Positions 11,221-36,909 of a stretch of DNA of 64,000 nt are shown in pieces. The first letter of the stretch is position 1. Each line of letters begins with the position of its first letter. The notes beneath the pieces were generated by a model. The model was given only the letters and a program-made list of their open reading frames with translations. It was not told the origin of the DNA and did not search any database. The position numbers and the translations under genes were made by a program. The stretch lies in the NCBI RefSeq assembly GCF_000516985.1, contig NW_006917100.1:2221490-2285489 (forward strand), given 5' to 3'. The stretch is from Pestalotiopsis fici W106-1. Its lineage: Eukaryota; Ascomycota; Sordariomycetes; Amphisphaeriales; Sporocadaceae.

Positions 11221-14124
11221 TCAATCTTCAGAGACGCCGATGCAGTACGCATAACCAGCCCAGAAATCGGTAGCGCAATCCGTGACAGCCGTGTTCCACT
11301 CCAAGAACTCCTCTCTGGTGACGTTGTACTCGTCATAAAAGGTATCGCACCCTTCTCCGTCTTCGGCAACGGCATACTCATCACAGGTTGAGATAATACC
11401 ACTCTGCGTATCCGCAGGAGGCGTGACCGAGGTCGTCGTGGCAGTGGTCGTCGTGGTTGGCGTCGCAGTAGTAGTAGCAGTGCTGGAGCTGTTTGCCACC
11501 CCGATACAATAAGCCTCGTCTGGCCAGAGATTGGCGCAATCGTCTGTTTGATACCGTTAGTTTCCTAGTGCTCCATGGCATGGCATTCTGAAAAAGGTCA
11601 TGGTGACTTACCTCCCACGGCGGGATTCCACTCGTAAAACTGGTCTAGGCTAATGCCATTGTCCGTGGCGATGGCATAACATCCATCGCCCGACTGAGCA
11701 ACATACCACGCATTGCAGTCGCTTGGCTGGCCAGTCTGCGTCGGCGCAGGTGCAGTGACGGCAGTTGTACTAGCGGTGCTCGACGCTGTCGAGGTGACTC
11801 CGCTTGTGACACTTGCCGTGGCAGTGGATGTAGAATTTTCCGAGCCGTCAGTGATGGAGACACAATAATCATAGCCTTGATGCGTTTATTAGCAAGTCTT
11901 GGGACGATGAAAAGGGCGAGTCTTTTTGACATACCTGTCTGAAGATTGGAGCAGTCTGATTTGACATCAGTGTTCCAGGCGTAGAAATCCGCAATCGTTA
12001 TATCATAGAGTGTTAGGATGGATGCACAGTCGTATCCGTCCCCGTCTTCGAGGTCGAAATATTCGGTACAGCCATTGTCCTCTGTGAGGGTCCCATCCCT
12101 GAGAGTCAAGTCGTCGTTATTGCCCGAGTCTGAGCTTGAGGTGACACTGTCGCCAAACCAATACTGGCCACAATACTGGTAGCCTGATTCAAAAGTACAG
12201 GTGCTCAAACTTGTATTACCAAGGGCTATCGATTATATAAGTCAGTCCAAATTCTTGCAACCATGGAAACAGCTGCGATGCTCCGTAGAGAGGGAATATG
12301 CCTACAAGGGTTCCATACGCCCAGGTCTTCCAAAGTGACGGAGAAGACGTGTGCTGCAAGGTCGCAGTCCGAGGCAAGATAGCTGCCGCTAGATACCTTG
12401 TCTATGTACTTGCTACCATTGAAGTACTGCCAACAATCGGACCTGGTACCGGTAGCGAGGGGAAGAGCCGTTGTAGTCGCCGTGGCCGTCGGAGTGGTGT
12501 AGTTGATGGTCGGCCACGTCGTCGCAGGGTCTCCTACCAGACTGACATATGTGGCCGTGGCCGTCACGTAAGCCGGCATGCCGCTGTAGGTGTTGATATC
12601 ACCGACAGCTTCCACACAGTAACTCGTGTCCGCCCAGAGATTCGTGCAGTTTTCATTGACGGATGGGTTCAGAAAAAGGAAATTATCGAGCGAAATGCTG
12701 TACTTGACAATGATCAGGTTGCAATAGTCACCCTCCACAGTCGTGTAATACTGAGCGCATCGAGTGTTTGTGCCGGAAGCAACATCAGTAGGCACAGCTG
12801 CAGTTGTCGATGCGCTCGAGGCGGAAGAAACAGAAGAGGGCATGGTGCTGTGGAACTTGACATTAGTAATATTCATACCCAAAATATGGCGACGATCACT
12901 GAGAGTGCTGACTGCTGGTCTCCTAGCCTTTCAGGGCTTTGAGAGCTGGACGCGGTCCCGGCCACATGATGTGTGTAGAACATGTAGAAGAAATAGCTTA
13001 CTAAGTACCACCAGGGTTGGAAATGCACAATTGATCATCCACCATGCTATCAACATTGTAGCAGCCAGCATCAATGCTCGGGTTCCAGGCCTTGAGTTGT
13101 GCCTGCGTAATGTTATTTGCCTTGGCTATGCTTGAGCACGTGTCGTTTGTCTGGACCGTGTAAACGTCACAAGTGTTCACCAGACAAAGATCGCCCGAAG
13201 TTGGAAAATCGACACATTTGGCCTTGAGATCATTATCAGTTAGAAGCCACGAGGTTCCGATGCTCATGCTTGAAGAGATGGAGTGACAATCATCACCGTC
13301 TGCAATGCTATAGACAGTGCCCTCGCAACCAGACGTTGCAGTAGCTGTCGAAGACGCAGCCGTGGTGGTACTGAATGGATATAAGTCATGATGCCGCTTG
13401 AATGGCCAAGGAAATATCTCACATGTCAATATTGGCTGCTGTCGTGGTCAACGGCATATCCGTGACGCCGCAGCTGGCCGTCTTGGATTGGTAAAGGGAG
13501 CTGGAGTAGATTTCAGGTCCGTCATAGTAAGGATGTTCTGCCTGGAACTTCAAGTTCTTGATGAGGCAAATGTCACACTCATCGGTGACCTCGATGTCTC
13601 CGTACATGCCCATGGCAGGAACTACAGTGAACGTTGGTCAGCTTGTACTCTGGGGCTTTCATGACTCTGGCAAGACAATATATCTACTAACTGTTGTTCG
13701 TCGTGGCATTCGTGTCGAGGTATGCAGCATAAGAAGCTGCTGCATTGTTACAGAAGCGACCCTCGTCGTCTGTCATGCAAGTCAAGTTATAATGGTAACT
13801 CAAGATCTCGGGAATGATGGCAACCGGCATAGTCTCGTTGCTATAGGCGAGCCATGTGTCGGCAGCACATGCAGCCTCGATGCTGGCTTGGTATGCGCCC
13901 AAGGCATCTTGGCAGTCTGATGTACACGCTCGAATCAAGGTGGTATTGGGGTAATAGAAGCCTGTAACCAGAGCTGGCACTACAACATCGCAGTTGACTT
14001 CAGCAATGAGAGCGTCAGAGCACGCAGATGTGATATTGGTAGGGACTGTGGTGTTTGTGTAGAACTTGGTAGTAGCTTGAGCGAGTGGCAGCATCAATGA
14101 TGCTATGACAGTAAAGAACGACAT
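11221..14124 (-). CDS. Secreted multi-LysM chitin-binding protein
   Basis: Seven exons on the minus strand (14124-13692, 13621-13423, 13370-13002, 12847-12306, 12225-11935, 11875-11612, 11543-11221) give one frame of 806 residues; every junction has GT..AG and the right phase. Residues 1-18 are a secretory signal. Residues 19 to about 225 form a Cys-rich, N-glycosylation-rich module without LysM. About seven LysM units follow, each with the C-x-x-Y...G-D-x-C...WN-P...C pattern, separated by Ser/Thr/Ala/Pro linkers; unit 1 lacks the WNP motif and unit 4 has lost the usual G-D/E-x-C step, so they may not bind. LysM domains bind N-acetylglucosamine oligomers, and secreted fungal versions shield or sequester chitin outside the cell. 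It lies head to head with the killer-toxin-like chitinase, the arrangement described for TAL6 and a subgroup C chitinase in Trichoderma. No catalytic domain is visible. Confidence 0.92.
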
Positions 14125-16581
14125 GTCAAACGACTTGATGAAGAGAGCGGCGTAGTCCTGAGCAGAGGAGATGAGAAAAGCAGGCTGAATGCTTATGACT
14201 ATTCTATCATGGGACGGAATGGCGACCCGTCATCTCTGTGGGATCCACCCAGCATCAGCATCTCTGTCGAATCCGCAAGGTCGGACACTGAGATATCCTC
14301 GATATGGGCCAAGCCTAGGGTATTACGGTAATAGCTGTCAAGGTCGGATAGACTGGTCTCATCTGACCATCCACTAGCCTTGCCTACACCAAGATAGGCA
14401 GACGTCTAATTGGCTGAGCACATGCTCTTGTCGGGTGCTGTGGAAGCGAAACATCATTTCCTCGCCATGCTCCGATAGCCAGTGCAGGATCGCTTAGAAT
14501 TGCATATGGGTCGGCTTGTTTACGTATTGCTCTGGAAAAAGAATTTTGCCATGTCCCATGTCAACCGCAGTAAAGTATAGAAACATCCAGTGGTATGGGT
14601 ATGGATGGGTACGGGTCCGATTGTTGGGCAACTTGATGCATGGTCAAATGGAGGTGGATACTGAGATGTCGAGGAGCCATCGGCCGACACCGCGATGAGT
14701 TTAGATTAAGCTTACCTGTTTGTACTTGTTGGTTTAAAAGAGACATTATGCTTAGGTAGATACTTTATCTAGAATCCATCAAGGATAGGTACCGATCCAT
14801 AAAAGTCCATCTCGTAGCACTTGGGATAATTACATAGGTATCATTGCATGTAGTATGTGTAATTCGGCTATCATGGGCGCCATGGTATGCCATAGCCTTT
14901 GTAGCGTAATCGAAGATTTTCGACATTTAGAAATTGAATCGCCAGTTGCTAATTGTCACCTGTGACAATGAGAACCAAAAATAACGAGAATCAAGTATTA
15001 CGCATGTTTTGAACAATCACGGCCATCTATTGCCAATGACGTTTCCTACTTGGTTACACGAATAGGTAAACCATAGACAGTGAGCATTAACGAATATCAT
15101 GCCTAGTATCATACCTGCTAGTTGGTTAGGTAGTAGTGATTGGAAGGATTTCCGCTTAGTTGAATAGGACCCAGCTAAGTCAGAGTCGTGCCCCATCAAG
15201 TGCCCTGAAGCCAACCCCCCATGGCAGTGCTACGTGATAGTACCTGCATATTATGGGGACCTGACGGACTGTGCCGCAGTTAGACTTTTCTTTAGCGCAG
15301 CGAAGACCCTGGAAGCCGGGTCGAAACCTCGGCCCATCTCCCACTTTGTGTGGTAAGTCGAAGGATTGAACTTGGCGCAGCACAGTTAAGTCTGAGGAAA
15401 AAATCCCGACGCCAAGCCTGTAGTCTGGGCAGACTGGGCTGATTATAGGACTGTCCAGGGTTCCGACGCGCGGCCTATGGAGTATATCAGCAGGAACTTT
15501 GGGGTCGGGATTCCCACGACGCCGGGTCGCAAACTTTTTTTTTTTAGACTTCCGATGGCCTGACTATCGTGACTAAAAGCTTGAACGAGATATACTAGGG
15601 AGAATTCAGTGTATGACCCGATCAATTTCCGCACAGCAGGTTGGGACTAGAGCAGATGGGGGGCCAATCATGAATCAGCATCACACGATATATGGTCCAT
15701 AGCCCGCAATACATGGCCCATTGTCCCGCAGGACGCTATTGTCTTACAGATTACCAGGGCTGGGAACCACAATACAAACTATTCAGACACATAGAAACGT
15801 TGCAATGGTGCAAAGCTAAAGATAAAATCACAGGGAGAGCAACCAGGCTACCAATCATGTGTTACGCTATTCTTCACACAACCTGCATGAACTCCATACT
15901 CGTTGATTACTTTCCAATCCTTCCGCCATTAGGTCAGCTGTCGGCTGCAACAATGGATACTAGCTGGTGATATCGAGAGGCTAGATGCAATGGAGTGACT
16001 ATTGACGAGCCATGGGCAAGGCTCCACGTCAGCCGTATGACCATGCGAGTTACACCATGAAGCAGTTTGTTGATGTCGGGGGCAAATTTGGTCTCGGGTA
16101 AGATCCAAAATAGGAAGAGGCGGAGGTTTCAAAGGCAAGGATTACCTGTATTGACGACAGCTTTATTCCGTTTTCATCCACCGCATCCTATACTGCTGGC
16201 GGCTCGAGCTCGCTACGTAGGTAGTATGCACAATGAGCTACCGAAAAAATAATATCGTGCCTATCGGACCCTTTGGAAAGGCCGGTAATCGGTGCGAGTT
16301 CTCTATCGAAATGAGAAATTTCTCATGATAGTACTGTGGGTTTTCCTCATCGCAGGGAGGGGAGGGCCCTGTGGATCTTCCGGCCTCTATAGGGTCACGA
16401 AAACGAGAATGAGATATGGCTCGAGGATCTTGTGAATATCCACCATCGGTCTCATGGTTGACATGACAGGGTCTTGCCAAGCGACGTAGACATTGCCATA
16501 AGTATCTTGTCACTTCAGGAATAAAGTGAAGTCGTAGTTTCGAGGTTGGAGATGTCGTCCTAGTCAAACCACTCTCATTTT
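14125..16581. other. Shared 2.5-kb divergent intergenic region of LysM and chitinase genes
   Basis: Head-to-head spacing between the two start codons. No supported coding frame inside. It must contain both promoters and could allow co-regulation; I could not single out a repeated regulatory motif by eye. A T11 run lies at 15535-15545. Confidence 0.6.
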
Positions 16582-19500
16582 ATGCCCAAGATGGCATCAC
16601 ACCTTTTTGCTACTGGGAACTATTCCCAGAGACGCTCATTGCTGAAAACAATCCTTTTTACCGTCTTTTGTACTTTCTTATTATCCAATCATCTTGTTGC
16701 GGCTTTGCCCGCGTCCAAAGCTGTCGACATTACAGCGTCACAAGAACTCACATGCCGGAATGAGGCTTACGAGTGAGTACAACACAGCAAAACTATGAGA
16801 TAGTTCTATACTAATATGCACAGTCCTTTCGACTACTCTGTAAAAGTCCGCCGCGACGAGAACGCTCCCGTCTGTGCATCGTCCTCCGGCGCGTCGCTCT
16901 TTGGGAAACGTGATGATGATTACTCCTGCAGCGAGTCCAAGGCCTGCTCGAACGGTACATTCCAATCATGAAACTCTTTTAATCCGGAATTCGAGTTTGT
17001 TGACTTTATCAAAAAGGCGCCTGTTGCGGAAAGACCCAAGGATATTGTGGTTATGGGCCTGACTATTGTGGAACCAACGATATCTCGCCCAACGATGTAT
17101 GCTGGAGCAACTGCGATGCCAAAGCCGAATGTGGCCAGTAAGTCTTGAGCCTCGCACTTGTTGAGTGAAGAGAGTAATTTCTGACTGGAATAATGTCTGC
17201 AGATACGCTGAAGTCGAGGGAGCCGAGTGTACTCTTAACGTGTAAGTCGTAACAATATCCGTACAACGGCTTGCTTAATCATAAGCTAACAAATTTCAAA
17301 TAGTTGCTGCAGTCAATATGGCTTCTGCGGCATGACAGATGAATTCTGCGAGGTTACTGACAACAAAAACACAACTTGTCAGAGCAACTGTGAGCAACCC
17401 GGCTCCGGCTCTTCAGATGGTGACGTCCAGAGCCGAATCATTGGCTACTACGAAGCTTGGAATGCCGACAAAGCCTGCGTTGGAATGGTAAGCATGAAAC
17501 CGAATTGGAGCGCTTGAGTAAATGCTGACAATGCCTTACAGACCCTTAGTCAAATCCCCGTCAACGCCCTCACTCACCTACACTTTGCTTTCCTCTACAT
17601 CAACCCGGGCGACTTCAAGATTGTGCCCATGGACGGGATCGACGAGTCGCTTCTCACTGATTTCACAGCGCTCAAGTCCAAAAACAGTGGGCTCAAGTGT
17701 ATTGCCTCCATTGGAGGCTGGACGTTCAGCGACAATGGCACCGTGACCCAACCGCTGTTTGGCGAAATTGCCGGCGACGCTACTAATCGTGCCACCTTCA
17801 TCACCAACCTTCTGGACTTTATGCGCCAATACGCGTTTGACGGAGTTGATTTCGATTGGGAATACCCCGGAGCGACCGATCGCGGTGGCACTGAAGACGA
17901 CGGCGAGAACTTTACCAAGCTACTCAAGGAGCTCCGTGAGGCCGTCGACGATGAGCCCATTGACTACAGCATTGCCTTTACCGCCCCAACGTCGTACTGG
18001 TACCTTCGCCACTTTGATCTGAAAAAGTCCTCGGAGTATGTCGACTGGATCAATGTAATGAGTTATGATTTACACGGAGTGTGGGACTCGAGCAACCCTA
18101 TTGGTAGCACTGTCTTGGCACACACCAATCTCACCGAGATCAAGTTGGCCTTGGACCTCTTCTGGCGCAACGATATCGATGCAAGCAAGATCAATCTGGG
18201 TCTCGGCTTCTACGGTCGCTCGTTCCAGCTGGCTGACCCATCCTGCTATAAGCCAGGATGTGCGTTCAAGGGTGGCGCCAACGCTGGCTCGTGTACTGAT
18301 AACTCGGGCACGCTGGCCTATTTCGAAATTCAAGACATTATCGAGGCAAAAGGTCTGTCACCATATTATGACAAGACGGCGCAGGTGAAATACATTGTCT
18401 GGGATGACGACCAGTGGGTATCCTATGACGATGAAGATACTTTCCAAGCCAAGATCGAATTCGCCAACAAGCTCGGATTGGGCGGTCTGCTTATCTGGTC
18501 CATTGACCAAGATACAAGCAACTACGAAGCGCTGAAGGCTGTGCTGTCGCCCAATGGAATTGATGCCTTTGAATCCGAGGCGGATGATGCAAGCTACTGG
18601 CAAGAGGCGACCGCGCAGGACTGCTACGTCACTGACTGCGGAGGCAGCTGCAACACGGGATACATCCAGATCGAAGAGCAGCCTTGTGGCTCCGCCAAAC
18701 CAGTCACGAGACATTCGACCAAGGATCCGTCAAAGCTGTGTTGTCCCCTTACGTCTGCTCCTGACCCAGACAACTGCCAGTGGCGAGGCACAGCCCCCAG
18801 TTGCAATGGTCACTGTGAGAACGGCGAGGTCATGCTCGAGATGAACAAATGGGGTGACGGCAAGTACTGCGAGGATGGACACAAAGCATATTGTTGCGAG
18901 GCATCCTCTCAGGAGACAGAGAACTCGTGCTACTGGACGGGTGTCGCAGGTAGCTGTGCCTCGGACGAGCTGCCCCTGACTTTTGCCGGCACGTTCCTGG
19001 AAGACCTTGCCGATATTGCCTCTCTGGGAGGCTTGATTGGCCAAGTACTAGCCGACTTTCTCGATACTGCGGATATGGACCTGCGACGTCTTTACTGTTG
19101 TCCCAAGGACGAAATTAGCCAGTGGGAGAATTGCGGCTGGCATGGTACTCCTGGCACATGCTACGATAACCACTGCGACGAGGGCACCCAAGTCCAACTC
19201 ACACAAAGCGACTATGGCGCTGGCCAGAGCTGTCTGCCCCGTATTGAACGTACACGCACATTTTGCTGCGACCCTGCAAATGGTGCCAGCCCTTTCCTTC
19301 CTGTTCCACTGGAGTACCTCTTTCCCAACGCGCCCGATGGTGACGATATCGAGACCGACTACGATCTAGAGATTGACGACACATGGGGCACTGGAAAGGA
19401 TAAGACTAGCACGGAAGACGATCCCAATGATTCCACTTTCGGGTTCTGGGTCATGGTCAGTCCGACGGAGATCCAGACCTCGTTGGACAAGCGTGATGGG

Positions 19501-22418
19501 TCGCACTGGGAACTGTTCAACTGTAACGATGCTGTCAGCACAGAAGAACAGACTGTCCAGATGGTCTGCATGGACGACTCTGCAGACAGCAATTGCTATA
19601 AGATCGGCCTCGGCCATGGAGTTCCTGGTACTATTCTCGAGATGCCCAGAGGCCAAGGTTGTGGCCCAGCCAAGTATGCCGTTGCCAAGTCCATGGTACC
19701 GTCTGCGAATCAAACATTACCTCATCACCTGGTAAAACGCACCTCGGGACGAAAGCCCATGGTTTACGACTTGACCTTTGATTATGATTGGCTCAGGGTC
19801 CCGAGAGACCTTGGAGACACACAGGTCCGGGTCGACTACAGTAACGAAGACGGCTACTGGGATGCCATTGTTGACAAGGCCGCAGAGAAGCGAAGAAAGC
19901 GATCTCTGGACGAAGTCAATGGCAGTCATCGGAGATGGCTCGAGGAGGAATGGCGCGACGATGTCCACTTTAGCAGCTTGAGCGAGCGCGAGCTTCATGA
20001 GCGATGGTTCGGTGAAGATGTCATTGCCTGGCTCAAGGGCCTCTTGAATGGCGAGATCGAGCCCAAGTACACTCATGACTACGACGAGTCCGTCACTGCC
20101 ATCATTGTCCAGGAAGACTGGTCTTGTCAGCCCAATGACTACACCAAACTGGAGGCAAGCCTAAGCGCCAAAGCCTCGGCCAACATCAAGGTGTCGTCCA
20201 CCTTTGGCATGACACTCATCTTCACGCTCGGAACCAGCATGGATCTCTCCAATTCTTACGTATATTTGAAGACAAGTGGCGAAGTCACGGCGATTTTCTC
20301 CATCGATGCAATGGCCAAGGCTAGCTTTGATAGTGGAGAGTTCTCCATCGTCACCGTGCCCATGCCCGGCGCCTCATTCACGATCCCCAATATCCTGACG
20401 GTTGGACCAAAATTTGTACTCAATGCCCAGGCTACGGCAGACGTTACGCTAGCTGGTCACTTTGAGACAAAGGTCGAGATTGCCTCGTGGGACTTTCAGC
20501 AGACCTATCCAGAGGCCAGCAGCGACTGGGAGCCAAAGTCCTTAGAGAGTCCATCCCGTGACTTTACCTTGGACGGCCTCAACGAGCCAACTTTCAACCT
20601 GACTGTTACTGCCAAGGGTCAAATGACGGCACACTTGAAGCCTACACTGAGCTTTGGAATTGAATTTGATGACCGCTGGGGCATTGACTCTGCCAAGGCT
20701 GAGTTGCTTGCCGATGGCTGGGTGCGCGTCCGCGCGCAGGCGAATCTTGCCGGTGACGATGCATCCACCTGTCCGTTCAAATACGGCATCGACGCTGGCG
20801 CCTCTTTTACTGCCCGGGCATCCGTCCCAGACAACTTTGGCTGGACTCCCGAGGATAAAACCTTCTACTCCCTTAGTAGCAACTTGATTCCCGGAGACGG
20901 CACTGATGACTATGTCTGCGTGGGAGTTGATTCCGAGACGGAGACGAAGCGTAGCTTGTCCAGACGCGATCCCTACGTTGCCTCTGGGGGCGAACATGAG
21001 CTTTTATCGAGCCACGGCAATGTCACCAAGCGCTCTGTAACGTACGGTCCTCTTTTCTCTATCCCCGTCAAAGGGCAGTTGTGCCCGAGCATTGAAGCAA
21101 CCACAACAACGGCATGCAATAGTATTAAAGGATTCGACGATGACCAGTTCAACGACATTGATTACATGAGGAAGAGAGACCTAAGCCCCTTGGATCTCGA
21201 TTTCTCAGACATTGAGAAAGCCAGCGGTATCGACATCACCGGGCTCCTCAAGCGTCGCAGTGTGGAGCTTGATGTCGAATCGGATGACAGCAGATCCGCC
21301 CTTCTACACGACATGATTGAGGACTTGTTTATGAACAACACGGAGCTGCTAGAGTCTTACCATGAGCTGAACAGGCGTGATGGTGCCGCTCAGATTTATG
21401 ATATCTGTTTGAACGATGCCAAGATGACATACCGGACGGCAGCATATCCCGAGAGCGGAACTCTTTACGATAACGAGGACTGGGGCGAATGCAGCAATTT
21501 CAACCTCATCGTTGCCCAGGGCCAGACGGCAGGACACAACTACGACTGGGAACATATTCTTGAGAGGCAGATCATTCAAGCATTCTCCGCATACGTAAGT
21601 GGCTCCCCAATTATGCTGCAAACACATGGAGTAGTAATCGATCTAACACCTTGTTAGTACTTTGAAGGCCAGGCGAGCCCCGTTGCAGGCTATGGTAGCT
21701 TTTGCAAGTACCTCAAGTACTTCTGGGAGAATCGCAACAGTCAAATTAACGGGGCGACTCCTTGGTCCATCATTGGTCAACAATGGCCGAATACTGCAGC
21801 AGGCACTGGGTAAGTCGTACCAAACACGCATCATATGCTATTCCCCCTCACCCTTTTGCTGTGCTGACAAGATACCACGTGAACAGCGGCGAGATGGTCC
21901 AGACCGAGCAGGAGATCAATCTGGCCAAGGCCCGTGCCTTCAAGTACGATGTAGCCATCAACGCGGTGGACACGATGAAGAAATGGGTCTCTTCGTACGA
22001 CGAAGTGGAACGTGTGATCAAGAATCTAAAGGACGTCATCCTAATGGTCAAGTACATGAGCGTCGCCAACGTCAACAACATCTACAATACACAGGGCCGA
22101 CGTGTGGCTACCGCTTTCGGTACCGTCGAGCAGGGCATCGCCGCCAACTGGGCCAATACGGCAACTCCATACACGGTCTTGGGCCTGGACCAGACCTTTT
22201 TGGTCTTTATGAGAGACTACACGACCCAAGTCAGTTCAAAGATTGACGATTACCTGCAGTTCTGGAGCGGTCAACTCCAAGTGTTTTACGACACGGAAAT
22301 CGGCGCGGGAGGAGGATCGACGCAGGACGAGCAAAATATCCTGGTCAAGATCGAGGACGTCAGAGCAGAGATTGATACGCTGACGGCGGCCACTCCCTTG
22401 TTCAACAACCCGTTCTAG
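16582..22418 (+). CDS. Killer-toxin-like GH18 chitinase (subgroup C type) with CBM18 modules
   Basis: Eight exons (16582-16772, 16824-16954, 17017-17137, 17203-17241, 17304-17487, 17542-21594, 21658-21809, 21887-22418) encode about 1800 residues; all junctions keep phase. A second in-frame ATG at 16591 is equally possible. Residues 22-41 are a signal peptide. Two CBM18 chitin-binding modules follow (about 97-147 and 149-193), then GH18 (about 203-545) with the SxGG strand at 278-281 and the catalytic D-G-V-D-F-D-W-E at 322-329 intact. Four Cys-rich modules with repeated W-x-G-x-x-x-x-C and closing C-C occupy about 575-800. The final 1000 residues contain no domain I can name, several dibasic K-R or R-R sites and a beta-strand-rich stretch (about 1090-1350). 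The family resembles the alpha/beta subunit of yeast chitin-targeting killer toxins; it hydrolyses chitin in walls outside the cell. No LysM lies in this chain; the neighbour supplies LysM. Exon 4 is only 39 bp. Confidence 0.92.
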
Positions 22419-24756: not shown

Positions 24757-25161
24757 TCAAGATGTGATAGTTTCAACAATCATGCCCCTCATTTGATCCT
24801 CCACGAACAGTTTATTCTCGTCGTCCAGGACCCGGGCCCTGTTCTCCTCGACCTTGTACATGATTCTCGAGAACTCGACCGCATCCGCTCTAGTCGCAAA
24901 CGTGACTTCATTGACCATGTCGTAGGGCACCGTTGCCGGCGGCGAATCGCCAAAGACGGTAAAAGGGTTGCCGAGAGACGGGTCCGAGGCTGCGTGGTCG
25001 AGGTAGCGCCGCGTGTACGTGATTAGTCCCTTGGCCTCCTTGGCCACCTCGAGAACGAGGGGAACGTGATTGGCCTCGTAATAGGCTTTGAACTCTGACG
25101 GGCTGAGGCTTGGATTGCGCTTGAAGAAAAGAAGCATGGTGTATTTGGGTTCGGAAGACAT
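24757..25161 (-). CDS. EthD domain protein (dimeric alpha/beta-barrel)
   Basis: Minus strand, 134 residues starting at MSSEPKYTMLL (ATG at 25161); the open frame continues upstream to 25302 but that part is low-complexity and probably leader. The chain is one EthD-like ferredoxin-fold domain: beta strand MLLFFKRN, S-P-S-E-F-K-A-Y-Y-E-x-N-H-V-P helix, then ITYTRRYLD, and a second helix F-A-T-R-A-D-A-V-E-F. The H-x-P step in the first helix is typical of the family. EthD proteins are small and dimeric; several act in bacterial ether degradation and in fungal aromatic polyketide pathways, for example ring dehydration or decarboxylation. Being divergent from a PKS 1.8 kb away makes a tailoring role possible, but not shown. 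No signal peptide. Confidence 0.82.
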   Translation of the reverse strand: MSSEPKYTMLLFFKRNPSLSPSEFKAYYEANHVPLVLEVAKEAKGLITYTRRYLDHAASDPSLGNPFTVFGDSPPATVPYDMVNEVTFATRADAVEFSRIMYKVEENRARVLDDENKLFVEDQMRGMIVETITS

Positions 25162-26656
25162 TGTGCTGGAATCTAGGACGCACTTTTTTCTGGTGTGATG
25201 CAGATCTTGATTATAGATAAGAGACGGTGATAACAGATTTGGTCGTTGCGACACACCTTGATATGGCGTAGTGGTCGGGGTATTTATGGTATGAGCCGTC
25301 AAGTCAAGTCAGATCAGGCTGGGTATTGGACAGGCGCAGCCGCATCTTTGCGTCCTAAAGATCAGCACAACTGTTTGCACATGACACGATCCTTCCAATG
25401 AATCCGTGATTGCACTCTGTTCGATCAACAGTACACTTACTTTTGCAAAAATCAATTATTCTCTTTCATGGTCAAAGTCCCTGGGAGAGATTGATGATTT
25501 TCGTCTTCTGCTTCCAAATGATCATCCAGGATCAGGATTGGGAACCAAAGTGATGACGGAGTATACGTTTTAGTCCATCGAACTAAAATGTGATCAAAAT
25601 ATTCTATAGCCTTGCCTGCTCAGCTAGTGTAACCTCACTATCCCCACATGACCGCCTGTGAAGCAATATCTATCAGCCACCATAAGGTGGAACCCTGTCT
25701 GACCGTCTCACCGGTTGAGCCTTGAGGTATGTAAGCCGGGCGAAGCTTTGCGATCGGAGTGAGTCGGCTTCCGATGCAGAGAAATTACCCAAATCGTCGA
25801 CCGGACCCAATGTATAATTTGAAGCAATTGATGATGGGCGATATCCCCCCATAATTGCGGGTAGCTGCTGCAAGGACTCATGATATCCCACGCGGCTTTG
25901 CGGCTTAGCTTTGAATCTCTTGTGACTGGTTGCACACCTGGGCAACCAGGGATCAGACCAAAGCAAGGCCAATCAGCTTGGCGGCATCATACAATGATCA
26001 ACCTATAACCAACCGGAATGACCCCAACTCACAATCATGGTTGCAGTCAGCAGGCGGACTTGCCCCAATTGGGCGTCAATTTTATGTCTATCACTTGAGG
26101 ATATCACTCGTATGATCCCTTTATCTTACCAATTAACGCACAGCATGTGTGACGGAATCCTTCTTGATATGATTCTTTGGTCAGACCGCATCACATGAAT
26201 ATGAGCAAACGTAACATCATTCATTGGGACTCTGCAGCATTAGCTCACCCGGGGAAAATTCTACATGAGGACAGAAAAATGGGCCAAGGAATGCGGATCG
26301 GATCTGGGACGGCTAAAATAATGATGGACATTTTCGGTACCCAATAGAACTTGCGACATCAACGACGAGCCCAGCTCGATCGAAGCTGATCTTATATGTA
26401 GACTGCAGATAACATCACTTCTTTGATTGGTAATCGCTCCGACGTAGCCCTGCAGGCTTATGCTATGCATAATTCTAGATTTGCACTTGTTCGGTGATGG
26501 ATGATGGGATCCGATAATGCTCTGCTTTGCGACCAGTAGTGGATTCGATGACTTCTCGAGTTCCTTGGAACCAGTTCGTAGCAAATTGTGCCGCTCTCGG
26601 AGTGCTATCCTATTGGGAAGTGTTGCATTATCTACTCGGCCTTCAGGGTCGTGACC

Positions 26657-26783: not shown

Positions 26784-26980
26784 TCCCCTGTCAACTTGTT
26801 GTTGTTTTCTGAGTGATTTTGCTCAAAAGACCAGTTTTCACACAATTTTCTAAAGACAATTCTTTCAGAGTTTGATCTAAAGACGATAACCAGGATATTG
26901 ATCTCCATACTCCCACATACTGGTATGATCATCAAGTAGATATAGCAGGACCTCTGATATTTCGAGCAACAGTTGCTACA

Positions 26981-29900
26981 ATGGAGGTCGTCAACGACAT
27001 TCCAACCGCCCCGACATCCAAGCCAGGCTCCGGTTGGTCTACACCAGTTTCGCAGGACTCTTCCATCTCTTCCGATCAAGTCGCAAGGGATGATGTGGCT
27101 ATCATTGGCATGGCTTGTCGTACAGCAGGCGGTAATGATACGCCTGAGAAACTCTGGGACTTTCTTATGGATAAGAAGGATGCTTCCGGAGACAACCCCA
27201 GCTGGCGATGGGAACCTTGGGTCAAAAGAGATCCCCGAAACGCAAAAGTCATTGAGAAGACCATCTCCAAGGGCTACTTCATTCCCGATCTGGAGAATTT
27301 TGATGCTTCATTCTTCAGCATTTCTCCCAAAGAGGCTGAGCAAATGGACCCGCACCAGCGACTTGGCCTGGAGGTGACATGGGAAGCCCTCGAAGACGCC
27401 GGCCTTGATCCGAAATCCCTCTCCGGATCCGATACTGCCGTGTACATGGGTGTTGATTCCGACGATTACTCGAGACTCCTTCTCGAAGATATACCAAACA
27501 TAGAGGCATGGATGGGCATAGGAACAACTGCCCATGGCATTCCCAATCGGATATCTTACCATTTCGACCTCATGGGACCTAGTGTTGCCGTCGACGCTGC
27601 CTGCGCATCGTCACTGTGTGCAGTCCATGCAGGGCGCCAGGCCGTCCTAAACGGCGAGTCCAAAGTGGCCATAGTCGGCGGAGTCAATGTTTGTCTATCT
27701 CCAGCTTTGTTCCACATGTTGGGTGCCGCGGGTGCTCTCTCCCCCGACGGCGTCTGCCTCTCCTTTGACGACGATGCTCATGGGTATGCACGAGGAGAAG
27801 GGGCGGCCGTCTTGATCCTGAAGCGCCTCTCCGACGCCATTGTGGACGGCGACCGCGTTCTCGCCACTCTCAAGGGCACGGCCATTGCGCAAGACGGCAA
27901 GACCAACGGCATCATGGCCCCGAATGCCAAGGCCCAGGAGCTGGTCGCGCGCAAGGCGCTGAAGGTGGCCGACGTCGAGCCCCTGTCCGTGGGCTACGTA
28001 GAGGCGCACGCGACTTCAACGTCTCTAGGCGACCCGACAGAGATATCTGCCATTTCTGCCGTCTATGGCGCTGGACGGCCTCGAGATGCGCCTGTCCACG
28101 TTGGGTCCATCAAGCCCAACGTCGGCCACCTCGAAGCTGCGGCTGGAGCCATCAGTCTTGTCAAGGCCGTCATGGCTGTTCGCAGAGGGGAAATTCCACC
28201 CCAAGCAAGGCTGAAGAAGCTCAATTCTAGAGTTGATTGGGACAAGTCCGGTCTGCAAATTGTCAGAGAAAAGGTGGTTTGGGATGAGTCAAATGGCCCT
28301 CGTCGCGCTGCCGTCTGTTCCTACGGATACGGCGGTACCGTATCGCACGCCATTATCGAGCAATCGCCACTTCCAGTCGCCGTCAGCCAGAATAGAAGAT
28401 CAGACACTCCCACGCTACTAGTTCTATCGTCACCGCAGGAGAAGAGATTGACGATCCAGAGCGCCGTTCAAGCCGAGTGGATCTCTGACAAAGGTCGAGC
28501 TCAGGGCCTCGACACTATTGCCTCCACCTTGGCGCTGCGTCGCGCTCACCATGACCACCGCGCAGCATTTGTCGTGTCCAATCATGACGAAGCCTCTGAA
28601 GCATTACTTTCGTTCACCAAGGGCATGACCCGCGATTGGAGCGCACAAGGCCGCACTTTCGCCAGCGGCCCCAGTAAAGACGTGGTCTGGGTATTTTCCG
28701 GACACGGCGCCCAATGGGGAGACATGGGAAAGGAACTCCTCCTGGATCCCGTCTTTTACCAAACAGTGTCTCCACTGGATGATATCGTTCTTCAGGAGCT
28801 TGGATACTCTGCGATTGAGACTCTGGAAGCGGGCAACTTTCAAGACTCGGACGTGATTCAGGTTCTCACCTATCTCGTGCAGGTTGGGCTCAGCGAGGTC
28901 CTCAAGTCCAGAGGGGTGCAACCTCGAGCAGTCATCGGACACTCGGTCGGAGAGATCGCAGCATCAGTTGTCGTTGGATGTCTGACTCCAAGTGAGGGTG
29001 CTCTTATAGTGACGCGACGTGCACGCCTGTACGCCCAGGTCAAGGGTCTCGGCGGGATGGCTCTGGTCAATCTGCCCTTTGCCGAAGTGGCGGCTGAGCT
29101 AGGGGACCGTGAGGATCTTGTAGCTGCTATTGATTCCTCCCCAAACTCATGTGTCGTCAGTGGTGCCATTGCTGCCCTCGCCGAGTACGAAGAAAAGTTG
29201 AAACAACGCAATATCAGGTCCTTCAAAGTCAAGACTGATATTGCCTTTCATAGTCCCATGCTGAAAACTCTGTCAGCATCACTGGAAACTGCACTATCCA
29301 AGGTCCTGAAGCCCCAACTACCCGTCATCAAATTGTACTCGACTTCAAGGAAGGATCCAAGATCTCAAGTTGCGAGAGATGCTGACTACTGGATTAATAA
29401 CATGGTTCATCCCGTCTGGCTCACCTCTGCAGTCAATGCTGCAGTCGACGATGGCCACCGTGTGTTTCTAGAGGTCTCGTCTCATCCCATTGTGTCGCAT
29501 TCGATCAACGAGACGCTGATGGAGAGAGATCTCAAGGAGTTTGCCATTATCCCCACAATGAAGAAGAGCCAGCCTACCGAGAAGAGCATTCTCCATGCCA
29601 TTGCCCAATTGTACGTGGCGGGTGCTCAGGTGAACTTCTCGGCCTTTATCGGGAGCCAGTGGTGCGCCGAGGTTCCAGGATTTGTATGGAGCCACAAGCC
29701 GTTCTGGAAGGACGTCTCGACAGGCTGGTCGGGTGATGAGGGCATACACGATATCGACAAGCATACCTTGCTTGGCAGGCGTATAGTCATTGCGGGCTCT
29801 AGTACCACTTTATACACCACCAGGGTCACCGAGGCGACTAAGCCCTTCCCAAGGGCTCACAAACTGCATGGTACTGATATCGTTCCTGCTGCAGTCTACC

Positions 29901-32438
29901 TGAATACCTTCTTTCACGCGACGAGCGCCGCTGTCATTTACGACATGACGTTGCGAACCCCACTTGCTGTAGGTTGTTGTCTTTTCGCAGTGTCTCTCCA
30001 TGCCAGTCAAATACTGAAACCTATTTTTTTGACAGATTACCGATGCCCCTCGAAATATTCAAGTCATTGCAGACGGTGAAAATGTCAAGATTGCTTCTCG
30101 TCTTGGCTCCTCTGACGACAAATCATGGGTCACGCACAGCGCAGCCCGCTGGGGTGTCGATCCCCTTGAGCAGACTGCCTCGCCGGCCAATCTGGACGCC
30201 ATCAAGAAGCGCATCGGCAAAGTCCTACCAAACAACTTCTCTATCGACTACCTCACTAGGGTTGGCGTGGCTGGTATAGCCTTTCCGTGGGCCGTTACTG
30301 AACATTACGGCAACTCTCGAGAAATGCTTGCGAGAGTGGATGCAGACCCAGACAGCGCAACAGTGTCGTGGCACTCAAGCTCTTGGGCTCCCATCTTTGA
30401 TGCGGCTTCGTCAGTTGGCGCCACCATCTTTTCCGACGATGCGAAATTGCGAATCGTCTCGAAGGTTGGAAAGGCCATGCTGTACTCGTCCCGACCGGCT
30501 CCAAAGATCTGCTACCTCTACGTAGTGGAGACTGAAGCTGCTGTTAATGATTCTCTGAGCAGGTCTGCAGATGTCTCGATTCTCAGTGTAGAGGGCGAGC
30601 TCCTGTCCAAGTTTGAGGGACTGACGCTGACCGAAGTGGATCCCGTGCCGAGAATCAGCCAAGGTATCGAAGGCCTGGTACACCAGCTGGCATGGGCACC
30701 ACCTCGTCTGTCTGAAAAACCGCTTGTGTTTGATCAGGTAGTTCTCATCTCAGAGGATGGCAAGCTGCATGACCGATACAAGATGGACTTGGAGGGACAG
30801 TTTCCAAAGGTGATCGGCTTTAACAGTGCCCAAGAACTGAAGCAAGAGGCAGCATATAAGTTGCTGCATGGCAAGACGTCTGCAGTAGTGTACTGCCCTG
30901 GGTCGATTGGATCGGCTGGCGACATTGCCGGGTCAGCTCGCAAGTTCATCTGGGATGCGGCTACCGCAATCAAGGCCATCGTCCACAACAGCCTGGCTGT
31001 CAAGTTTTTCATCGTCACCGATGGAGTCTTTGCTGCCGGTTCCGCTGCGGCTCTCGCTCAAGGACCGCTCTATGGCCTCGCCCGTGTCGTTGCCTTGGAA
31101 CACTCCGATATCTGGGGTGGTTTGATAGACAATGAAGGTCCAGCATTCCCTCTGTTGCCATTCAAGTATGTCCAAGGGCACGATATCATCCGATTTGTGG
31201 ACGGCTTGCCTCGAGTAGCGCGAATGAGGCCCTTTTCAAAATATCAACTACTCCCGGCCTCGAGCAACAAGACGTTGTTGCCCAAGTCCGAGGGCACCTA
31301 TGTCATTACTGGAGGTCTTGGTGTCCTCGGTCTTGAAACGTGCGACTGGCTCATTGAGAAGGGCGCGCGTCGCATCGTCATTGTCTCTCGCCGTGCCTTG
31401 CCGCCTCGTAGCCAATGGACAGGGGCCGCAGAAAAGATTCTTCCAATTCTGAGGAGAATCCAGGCCATGGAGAGACTCGGTGCAAGCATTCACGTAGTCT
31501 CTCTAGACATTGGTGCTGATGATGCACATGATCAGCTACTCGCCTCTCTAGAGAGGCTTTCACTGCCCCCCGTCCTCGGAGTCATCCACGCCAGCGGAGT
31601 GCTCGAGGATTCACTGCTGTGCGACACCACAGCCGACTCATTTGCGCGAGTGCTGTCACCTAAAATCTCTGGTGCTCTCGCCCTCCACCGGGCCTTTCCT
31701 CCAGCCGCTGGACTTGACTTTTTTGTGCTCTTCTCATCCATTGGCCAACTCGTCGGCACATCCGGCCAGAGCTCGTACGGTGCTGGTAATGCCTTTCTCG
31801 ATACACTTGCCGCGCACCGTCGCGGGCAGGGCGATAATGCCATTGCGTTTCAGTGGACCGCGTGGCGAAATCTTGGCATGGGCACATCCGACTTTTTGGC
31901 CCTCGAGCTCGAGAGCAAGGGCATCACGGATATCACGCGCAGCGAAGGCTTCCAGGCCTGGGAGCACATGTCCAAGTACAATGTGGACCAGGTTGTCGTG
32001 ACTCGCTGTAGAACTCTGGACGCGGTTGAGCCGATACCTTGCCCATTACTCGAGGACATTGCCGTGCGTATTCCAATTGCTCGAACCAGCGCTTCTTCGT
32101 CGATGACGCCGGTTGTCAAGGCTGGAGAGGGCGGCGGCGGCAGCAAAGCCAGCAGTGGAGATGCCCGCCCGACGAGCACAGTCGAGCTCAAAGCCTGGCT
32201 TAATGTGAGACTTCGCGAGTGTCTCGCTTCTGTTTTGAAGATTGACGATATTGAGGAGATTGATGATCGTGTCGCGCTGACTGACATTGGCGTCGATAGC
32301 GTCATGACCATTGTGCTGCGCCAAAAGTTGCAGAGCGTGCTGAAGATCAAGGTGCCGCAGACACTCACGTGGAATTATCCTACTGTCGTGGCCATGGTGG
32401 ACTGGTTCTTGAAGCAATTTCAGGATGAAGCTGCTTGA
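26981..32438 (+). CDS. 6-methylsalicylic-acid-synthase-type partially reducing polyketide synthase
   Basis: Two exons, 26981-29968 and 30036-32438, with a 67-bp phase-0 intron, give 1796 residues, close to known fungal 6-MSA synthases (about 1770-1800). Domain order: KS (about 38-460; active Cys208 in DAACASS, then the His in EAHATST and the His in NVGHLE), AT (about 565-880; Ser655 in GHSVGE), thioester-hydrolase/DH-like domain (His928 in KHTLLGRR, Asp1118 in IFDAASSVG), KR (GGLGVLG near 1422, Ser/Tyr in SSIGQ and SYGAGN near 1562-1576) and ACP (Ser1751 in GVDSV). There is no ER, methyltransferase or C-terminal thioesterase, as expected for this class. The family makes a tetraketide aromatic such as 6-methylsalicylate, or a mellein-like pentaketide, from acetyl- and malonyl-CoA. 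All catalytic residues look intact. No obvious P450, transporter or regulator lies adjacent; the EthD gene is divergent. Confidence 0.95.
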
Positions 32439-35678: not shown

Positions 35679-36909
35679 TCATACGGGCCCTGTGGGGCCC
35701 ATCCCCTTTCCATAGTCTTTGTCGGGTCTTGCCATGGCCCACCTCAACCTCTCTACATTTTCCTTTAGCTCGTCTCTCTCTTCCTCCATGGATATGAGCT
35801 CTCTCTCGAGGGTGACAATGTGACGTCTCGCCATCTCTAGCACCTCTGCTTTGCTAATCTTGCGATCTCCATCGTCGTCCTCTTCGTCCTCTCCGCCTCG
35901 CATGTATTGCGGCAAGGTGTTTAATAGTGCCTCAAAGTGCGCATTCAGCCGGTTTCGATACTGCTTTTCCACCTGGTTGTGGGAGGCTCGGTTCTTTCGT
36001 TCCTCCTCTGTTGCGGGCGGGTTTAAATGGTTGTTTTTCGAGGCCCTTGATGCTGAGCGTAGTTTTGAACTGGTTGCAGATCTAGTTGTGGTTGGCGGTG
36101 GTGGTGAGAGTGGATATCTCCTCCTTGTCCGCGTCGAAGCCGAGGACTCCATTTGTTTCGAGCTGCGGCGATAGTGATTCGCGTTGCCAGCACCAGCGGC
36201 ATCGAGAAATGGGCTCGCGGCTGCTTCGAACTCGCCATGATATGGGTAGCTGTAGGGGGTGCTATACCCGTGTGACCCCATGCCGCTATCGTGCATCGGG
36301 ATGTCAAACCCGCTGGCTGGAGAATGTGAGAATGAGTTCCGCACAGACGACCATTCTGTATCACTGGGATAGCCTGCAGAGCCGGTGCGCGGCATGGCGA
36401 GACTATCTCCGTAGTGAATTGGAGACGCACCTTGTGGTGCTGGATAAGTCGCCCATGCTTCGGTGGTCACGGGATAATGCGACGAGCTCGTCGCTGTCAC
36501 AGCCGCAATTGTGGTTAGGGACAGAGACGAAGACAGCTCTACCTGTGCAAGTAACATAATTAGCAAGAAATTCCATTTTATCGCTGAACATAACAATCCT
36601 GTAGCATTTTCGACCCGCTTGGGGGACAACGGCGGATGGTGCTCAAGCAAGCTCTCACCGCGGTTGAGTTCAGATGGATGCGGATTTGCGACTCTCGAGA
36701 GATCCGTCGCCTGATTCTAGATGCATCCCCCCATCGGGAGTTTGCTATCCTGACCAATTTTCAAACATAACAAGCTGGCTGCTCCAGCATCCATCAAATG
36801 GTAGCCAAACTAGTCGGCATGCTATTGCGTATGTGAGGAAAGAGAGGGGCTACATTTGACGACTTACCTCTGTGGGCTGATTTGTAGAGTTGCCAATAGC
36901 AAACGTCAT
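35679..36909 (-). CDS. bHLH-leucine-zipper transcription factor with SREBP-type tyrosine
   Basis: Two exons on the minus strand: 36909-36868 (14 codons, MTFAIGNSTNQPTE) and 36542-35679, separated by a 325-bp intron with GTAAGT donor, GCTAAT branch site and CAG acceptor; 301 residues in all. The N-terminal half is Ser/Pro/Tyr-rich and disordered. The basic helix-loop-helix runs from about residue 195 (ASHNQVEKQYRNRLNAHFEAL), has an acidic loop (GGEDEEDDDGD) and continues into a Leu/Met-spaced heptad region. In the basic region the usual ERxR is EKQYR: the tyrosine is the mark of the SREBP/Sre subgroup, which lets the protein bind sterol elements as well as E-boxes. No membrane segments follow, so it is not a full SREBP precursor. 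A longer open frame upstream in exon 2 is intronic. It could regulate the nearby PKS, but 3.2 kb lie between and nothing shows this. Confidence 0.83.

Follow-up and report, generated by a model that had tools for sequence, protein, structure and literature searches.

A divergent gene pair for a seven-LysM protein and a killer-toxin-like chitinase in Pestalotiopsis fici, and its repetition in the genome

In a stretch of 64,000 nucleotides from the genome of Pestalotiopsis fici W106-1 (contig NW_006917100.1, positions 2,221,490 to 2,285,489, forward strand; hereafter the window), a gene for a TAL6-like protein with seven LysM-like modules lies head to head with a gene for a subgroup C, killer-toxin-like chitinase. 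Pairing as such is already known from other fungi; what is added here is that the pair is repeated about elevenfold in one genome. On balance, we favour the reading that it is of the known kind, i.e., a C-I killer-toxin-like chitinase and a TAL6-like multi-LysM protein, divergently encoded, which would act as a cutter with its own shield. The two genes are probably co-induced. Little is known about the function of killer-toxin-like chitinases, a group of very large secreted enzymes. The eleven cassettes in head-to-head order, the three fused loci that lack a partner and the agreement between enzyme and binder among the closest copies now allow concrete tests of matched cutter-and-shield pairs. 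The pair and the region between its genes are arranged as follows.

11221..14124, minus strand: LysM gene (TAL6-like), 7 exons, about 806 residues, with signal peptide, N-terminal cysteine-rich domain and seven LysM-like modules
14125..16581, no strand: shared upstream region, 2457 bp between the start codons, without recognisable gene
16582..22418, plus strand: subgroup C (C-I type) killer-toxin-like chitinase gene, 8 exons, about 1800 residues

As the first-pass annotation of this DNA had proposed, two genes for secreted proteins diverge from a region of about 2.5 kb, the LysM gene on the minus and the chitinase gene on the plus strand. Both are intact, with every intron GT..AG and every exon open in phase in models whose exon boundaries and signal peptides were picked by eye, without cDNA or gene finder; positions 11221 and 22418 are the exact stop codons of the two genes. 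No third gene was found in the shared region, where the longest stop-to-stop frame spans 127 codons (14125-16581).

The genome searched comprises 51.7 Mb on 20 contigs, and the counts obtained from it are lower bounds. One of its paralogous LysM proteins (C10:117934-119322) matches PFICI_12255 of P. fici W106-1 (Sporocadaceae, Amphisphaeriales) with 100% identity over 95% of the query. Forty-seven GH18 matches were collapsed into 27 loci, 17 of which are C-type as judged by a CBM18, LysM or tail match. A divergent chitin-binding neighbour is present at 11 of these 17 loci versus none of the 10 other GH18 loci (Fisher p 0.001) and, within the C-type, at 11 of the 14 loci without a fused LysM versus none of the three with one (Fisher p 0.03), both tests having been made after seeing the data. 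The three loci at which LysM is fused in the chitinase chain are C6:641k, C3:1218k and C11:1715k; in the 5 kb upstream of them, the single LysM-motif match, in a 67-codon frame at C6, was judged spurious. Moreover, at the remaining 10 GH18 loci, whole-genome searches detected neither LysM nor CBM18 up to a distance of 10 kb.

The 11 paired loci (the window, C11:998k, C3:634k, C9:1545k, C3:1872k, C1:6823k, C2:4783k, C8:1737k, C10:121k, C5:2336k and C11:557k) are spread over eight contigs, with landmark-to-landmark gaps of 1.2-3.3 kb. A third gene between the partners had been named beforehand as an observation that would speak against a two-gene unit. None is seen at the window locus, and there is likely one at a single paralogous pair of the 11, C3:1872k, where a 247-codon frame without Pfam match is judged a likely gene because of its length; at the other ten pairs, the longer intervening frames either belong to one of the two genes or are unassigned and shorter than about 165 codons.

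The partners themselves vary. At C11:553477-554895, the divergent partner of the chitinase is built of many CBM18 repeats (about nine by eye) instead of LysM. The LysM partner at C2:4777307-4782037 carries a pectate-lyase-like upstream frame (PF12708; GH55-like by eye) before its N-terminal domain and LysM part, and the whole appears by eye to be one gene. A Colletotrichum protein named btgC (P0170) aligns to the N-terminal domain and LysM part of a paralog, and the C10:121k chitinase is flanked on both sides by LysM matches (118.0k, minus; 126.7-127.5k, plus).

The closest enzyme and partner copies also agree in their relationships. A search with exon 1 of the window LysM gene located the partner N-terminal domain (N-domain) at six other divergent partners and at C9:1749k; the last match (C9:1749515-1749835) has no GH18 match near it. 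A profile made from the N-domains of ten partners recovers those ten and, at 1e-16, the LysM gene C9:1361k, which had not been used to build it; it misses the CBM18-repeat partner at C11:557k as well as all three fused loci, whose best E exceeds 5. Since this search gave no N-domain at any fused locus, no fusion of a whole partner to the enzyme is seen in this genome.

Among nine loci, pairwise identity is 0.40-0.68 for GH18 and 16-43% for the partner N-domains, and the three closest of the 36 locus pairs are the same for both: the window with C11:998k (GH18 0.68, N-domain 0.43), C10:121k with C2:4783k (0.60 and 0.40) and C3:1872k with C1:6823k (0.61 and 0.34). Both trees join C10:121k to C2:4783k (ultrafast bootstrap 100 and 99) and C3:1872k to C1:6823k (100 and 94) as sisters. 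The window and C11:998k do not form a supported clade in the GH18 tree; the alignment rows for GH18 took the window sequence as anchor, and the window branch is shortened as a result. The three fused chitinases form a separate clade (ultrafast bootstrap 100). The two-gene unit is thus supported beyond this locus, both by its presence at 11 of 17 versus 0 of 10 loci and by the identity of the three closest pairs for enzyme and partner.

The exons of the LysM gene encode the following parts.

13423..14124, minus strand: exons 1-2, signal peptide (by eye) and N-terminal domain
13002..13370, minus strand: exon 3, LysM 1 (degenerate) and LysM 2 (Pfam 4.4e-11)
12306..12847, minus strand: exon 4, LysM 3 and most of LysM 4 (degenerate)
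11935..12225, minus strand: exon 5, end of LysM 4 and most of LysM 5
11612..11875, minus strand: exon 6, end of LysM 5, Thr/Ser-rich linker and most of LysM 6
11221..11543, minus strand: exon 7, end of LysM 6, linker, LysM 7 and stop

The sum of these exons (14124-13692, 13621-13423, 13370-13002, 12847-12306, 12225-11935, 11875-11612 and 11543-11221) gives a protein of 806 residues. It begins with the signal peptide and a cysteine-rich region of about 200 residues without LysM (exons 1-2) that had previously been overlooked, and the exon-1 part of this domain is common to the LysM partners of other pairs in the genome. The seven LysM units without an enzyme that had been claimed are indeed there, joined by Ser/Thr-rich linkers; five were recognised by motif, and the degenerate first and fourth by eye. 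The motif extends from the first pair of cysteines as far as WN/LN; cysteines three and four were placed by eye. It gave false matches (one in a 39-kb control stretch, one at 23.8 kb of the window and a few at other loci). Pfam LysM exceeded the cut-off in two of the seven exons taken singly (4.4e-11; 22.5 bits vs 20.9), and LysM 2 has a relative in the PDB, 4pxv, a LysM of 'Chitinase A' (3.7e-5). The fungal-specific four-cysteine LysM pattern and the secretion signal were judged by eye in the exon translations only. With several LysM modules, no enzyme domain and a subgroup C chitinase gene adjoining its gene, the protein resembles the TAL6 type.

The chitinase gene has the following parts.

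17017..17137, plus strand: exon 3 with CBM18 number 1 (motif only; Pfam 0.44)
17203..17391, plus strand: CBM18 number 2, spanning an intron (Pfam E 1.6e-7 and motif)
17434..18513, plus strand: GH18 domain, with one intron inside (Pfam E 2.6e-69)
19459..21594, plus strand: conserved tail with dibasic sites, with relatives in many Pezizomycotina classes
20044..20898, plus strand: predicted all-beta domain with very long strands, most of them amphipathic (AlphaFold2 pLDDT 86.5, pTM 0.67)

Its exons (16582-16772, 16824-16954, 17017-17137, 17203-17241, 17304-17487, 17542-21594, 21658-21809 and 21887-22418) sum to 1800 residues. The catalytic motif of GH18 (DxxDxDxE) is intact as DGVDFDWE at 17839-17862, and neither Pfam nor the motif revealed a LysM in the chain. 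The two CBM18 modules, intact GH18 and lack of LysM that had been described were therefore confirmed, CBM18 number 1 by motif only, whereas the tail after GH18 is nearer 1250 residues than the 1000 first estimated. An intact GH18 motif, CBM18 N-terminal to GH18 and no LysM in the chain are the marks of C-I; the combination of LysM and GH18 in one chain, which marks C-II, is not found here. The window GH18 falls outside the clade of the LysM-bearing chitinases of this genome, in a tree that held no named C-I reference. At C6:3882165-3883043, a CBM18 match (3882369-3882494) falls inside a GH18 match, which gives the impression of a binding module placed within the catalytic domain.

By its architecture, the window chitinase is an ordinary C-I form, usually LysM-less. 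According to the literature, C-I members of one Aspergillus have CBM18 only and C-II members also have LysM (PMC2614207), LysM occurs mostly in C-II chitinases (PMC8042737), and subgroup C has a second architecture without CBM50 (PMC4169460). The first-pass annotation had held that functions which occur in one chain elsewhere are split over two genes here. This stands insofar as the binder and the cutter each have a gene of their own, in head-to-head order; it is only partly right because the C-I form is ordinarily without LysM and the one-chain LysM is mainly a C-II trait. In its simple form, a split from a fused ancestor was rejected, given that the fused loci are a clade of their own and that the window type has the ordinary C-I architecture.

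We examined the tail among its relatives, taking the best 120 of 279 matches and, among those 120, a full-length set of 76 with at least 1400 residues. The best match of the window tail is at 67% (among the best 120 of 279), and no LysM occurs in the precomputed domains of these 120 or in five that were rescanned. Relatives that share the architecture of the window chitinase occur in many Pezizomycotina. Two relatives that align with the long C-terminal tail (P0055, P0091) are named 'killer toxin subunits alpha/beta'. The large exon encodes 14 dibasic places, none of them inside GH18, with a density of 1.52 per 100 residues in the tail vs 0.18 in GH18. Those at residues 650 (74/76), 732 (63/76), 786 (73/75) and 797 (58/76) are well kept among the full-length relatives, and further kept places are 1136 (49/63), 1163 (67/75), 1237 (53/70) and 1278 (50/75), while 1211 is kept in 6/7, and in 41/47 in another alignment. 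The predicted beta domain is located between dibasic residues 797 and 1136. Its hydrophobicity alternation, summed over eight strands, exceeds that of all 5000 shuffles, although alternation is slight in the first strand and in the last. Among solved structures, outer-membrane barrel sheets and beta pore-formers come nearest, without significance; a DUF7223 match below threshold (18 bits, cut-off 27) lies in this domain at 20290-20442 of the window (large-exon residues 917-967).

As modelled, the tail fits a processed alpha/beta precursor of the killer-toxin type with a membrane-acting piece, Kex2-type cleavage being putative. A permeabilising role like that of killer toxins was proposed long ago (PMC2614207, PMC8715425). 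The conserved putative processing sites around a confidently predicted beta domain allow concrete tests of an action of the tail on membranes.

The closest known counterpart is in Trichoderma, and the pairing of TAL6 with a chitinase that the earlier annotation had noted there is borne out. Tal6 has seven LysM, and its gene adjoins tac6 and is co-regulated with it; the same order is described for other tal genes (PMC4392113), and Trichoderma multi-LysM genes without an enzyme adjoin chitinases in most cases (PMC3218866). The window pair resembles tal6/tac6 of T. atroviride in having seven LysM without an enzyme, encoded beside a subgroup C chitinase gene (PMC4392113); it belongs to another fungus, and the likeness is one of description, not of sequence or gene orientation. 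In Clonostachys rosea, the LysM-only gene lysm2 likewise adjoins that of a killer-toxin-like chitinase, chiC1; both are induced on chitin, and deletion of lysm2 leads to hyphal disintegration (PMC7176902). Lysm2 has two LysM modules, whereas the window protein has seven. Tal6 also protects hyphae from chitinase (PMC6773873).

Two further systems resemble the chitinase alone. The fused LysM-chitinases share GH18, CBM18 and a long secreted chain with it, but they carry LysM in the chain and form the separate clade described above. The alpha/beta precursor of Kluyveromyces lactis zymocin (cf. PMC2614207, PMC8472843 and PMC8715425) is likewise a long secreted chain that begins with chitin-binding and GH18 parts and contains dibasic sites; again the comparison is by description, not by sequence. 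In contrast to zymocin, the window chitinase chain has no LysM, and no gamma-like gene was recognised beside the pair. A Pfam scan of 10 of the 35 listed open frames found no family of gamma-like toxin (tRNase), no genome-wide search having been made.

In the favoured reading, a Kex2-type protease would cut the chitinase precursor into alpha-like and beta-like pieces. The alpha-like piece (CBM18-GH18) may then open the chitin of a fungal wall, and the beta-like piece, the amphipathic all-beta domain, may act at the membrane. The LysM protein, made simultaneously, would coat the producer's own chitin or soak up oligomers, so that the enzyme would neither lyse nor alarm its producer. Such a cutter with its own shield would most likely be directed at other chitin-walled cells or come into play on contact with them; roles in wall remodelling or at the plant interface are compatible with this.

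A good deal less probable, although not exclusive of other readings, is that the pair serves wall remodelling only, the chitinase acting on the ageing or branching hyphae of the producer and the LysM protein setting where and when, with no attack on other fungi. The altered germination and hyphal integrity of Clonostachys lysm mutants (PMC7176902) would agree with this, but the many strongly diverged copies (GH18 identity 0.40-0.68 over nine loci) and the killer-toxin-like tail suit biotic conflict better than housekeeping. Moreover, Podospora Pa_5_1150, which has GH18, chitin-binding and Hce2 parts, is up 3-fold in a non-self reaction (PMC3689799), yet because of its Hce2 it resembles the fused type and not the window chitinase.

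Rather doubtful is an explanation in which, while the fungus grows as an endophyte, the LysM protein keeps the chitin oligomers that the chitinase sets free out of reach of plant receptors. P. fici has an endophytic habit, which counts in its favour. Tal6 also lowers the induction of plant defence genes (PMC6773873), but the window modules resemble, by eye, its fungal-specific cysteine-rich type, for which PMC4392113 reports that binding of chito-oligosaccharides was not detected by calorimetry; furthermore, hiding needs no chitinase of 1800 residues.

We would give little credence to a bolder scenario, in which C-I chitinases would be two-gene contact weapons with LysM 'in trans' and C-II chitinases would have it 'in cis'. 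Cleavage of the C-I precursor at its conserved dibasic sites would release a beta-sheet domain whose transmembrane-like amphipathic strands permeabilise the victim, each divergent LysM partner would be the matched self-protection for its own enzyme, and the genome would hold about a dozen separate weapon-and-shield cassettes. Neither this cis/trans rule nor the eleven-fold count was found in the available parts of the literature searched, and Gruber 2011 may contain parts of them.

Least credible of all is that divergent pairs were copied by segmental duplication and retained without joint function, for which the missing promoter motif and the agreement of the closest enzyme and partner copies (just what block duplication would give) can be cited, but the copies are old (N-domains 16-43% identical) and distributed over eight contigs, and still 10 of the 11 pairs lack a likely intervening gene, and the position was kept even where one partner is replaced by CBM18 repeats and another has an extra pectate-lyase-like part.

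Several observations weigh against the reading of a cutter with its own shield. Over the whole matrix of nine loci, co-divergence of enzyme and partner is weak (rho 0.30, permutation p 0.04). Three C-type loci have neither LysM in the chain nor a divergent partner: C11:754k and C6:3882k, where the search for a partner covered 6 kb, and C9:1352k, which has a LysM gene about 6 kb upstream, but in the same orientation and separated from it by two other frames. Conservation is poor at five of the 14 dibasic places (515, 4/68; 783, 24/70; 784, 24/72; 1141, 4/49; 1238, 6/41), and single arginines are no better kept in the tail (14/33) than in GH18 (6/7). Foldseek gave no match to the beta domain with E <= 0.001. 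No 8-mer was common to the 11 intergenic regions above the level of shuffles, the commonest occurring in six of 11, against a maximum of five to eight over 100 shuffles, and a shared promoter motif was thus rejected. Tal6 itself had earlier been reported to inhibit germination, without protection (PMC4392113), contrary to PMC6773873.

Several kb from the C-type chitinase at C9:1352k, LysM frames on opposite strands (C9:1359k-1364k) lie head to head with each other. Around the window pair, genes for a pyridoxal-dependent decarboxylase, an EthD protein and a polyketide synthase were recognised. The polyketide synthase frames (KS-AT-DH, then KR-ACP) lie near the chitinase gene at 26876-32435 of the window, as do those of the EthD protein (24760-25308) and of an HLH protein (35682-36716).
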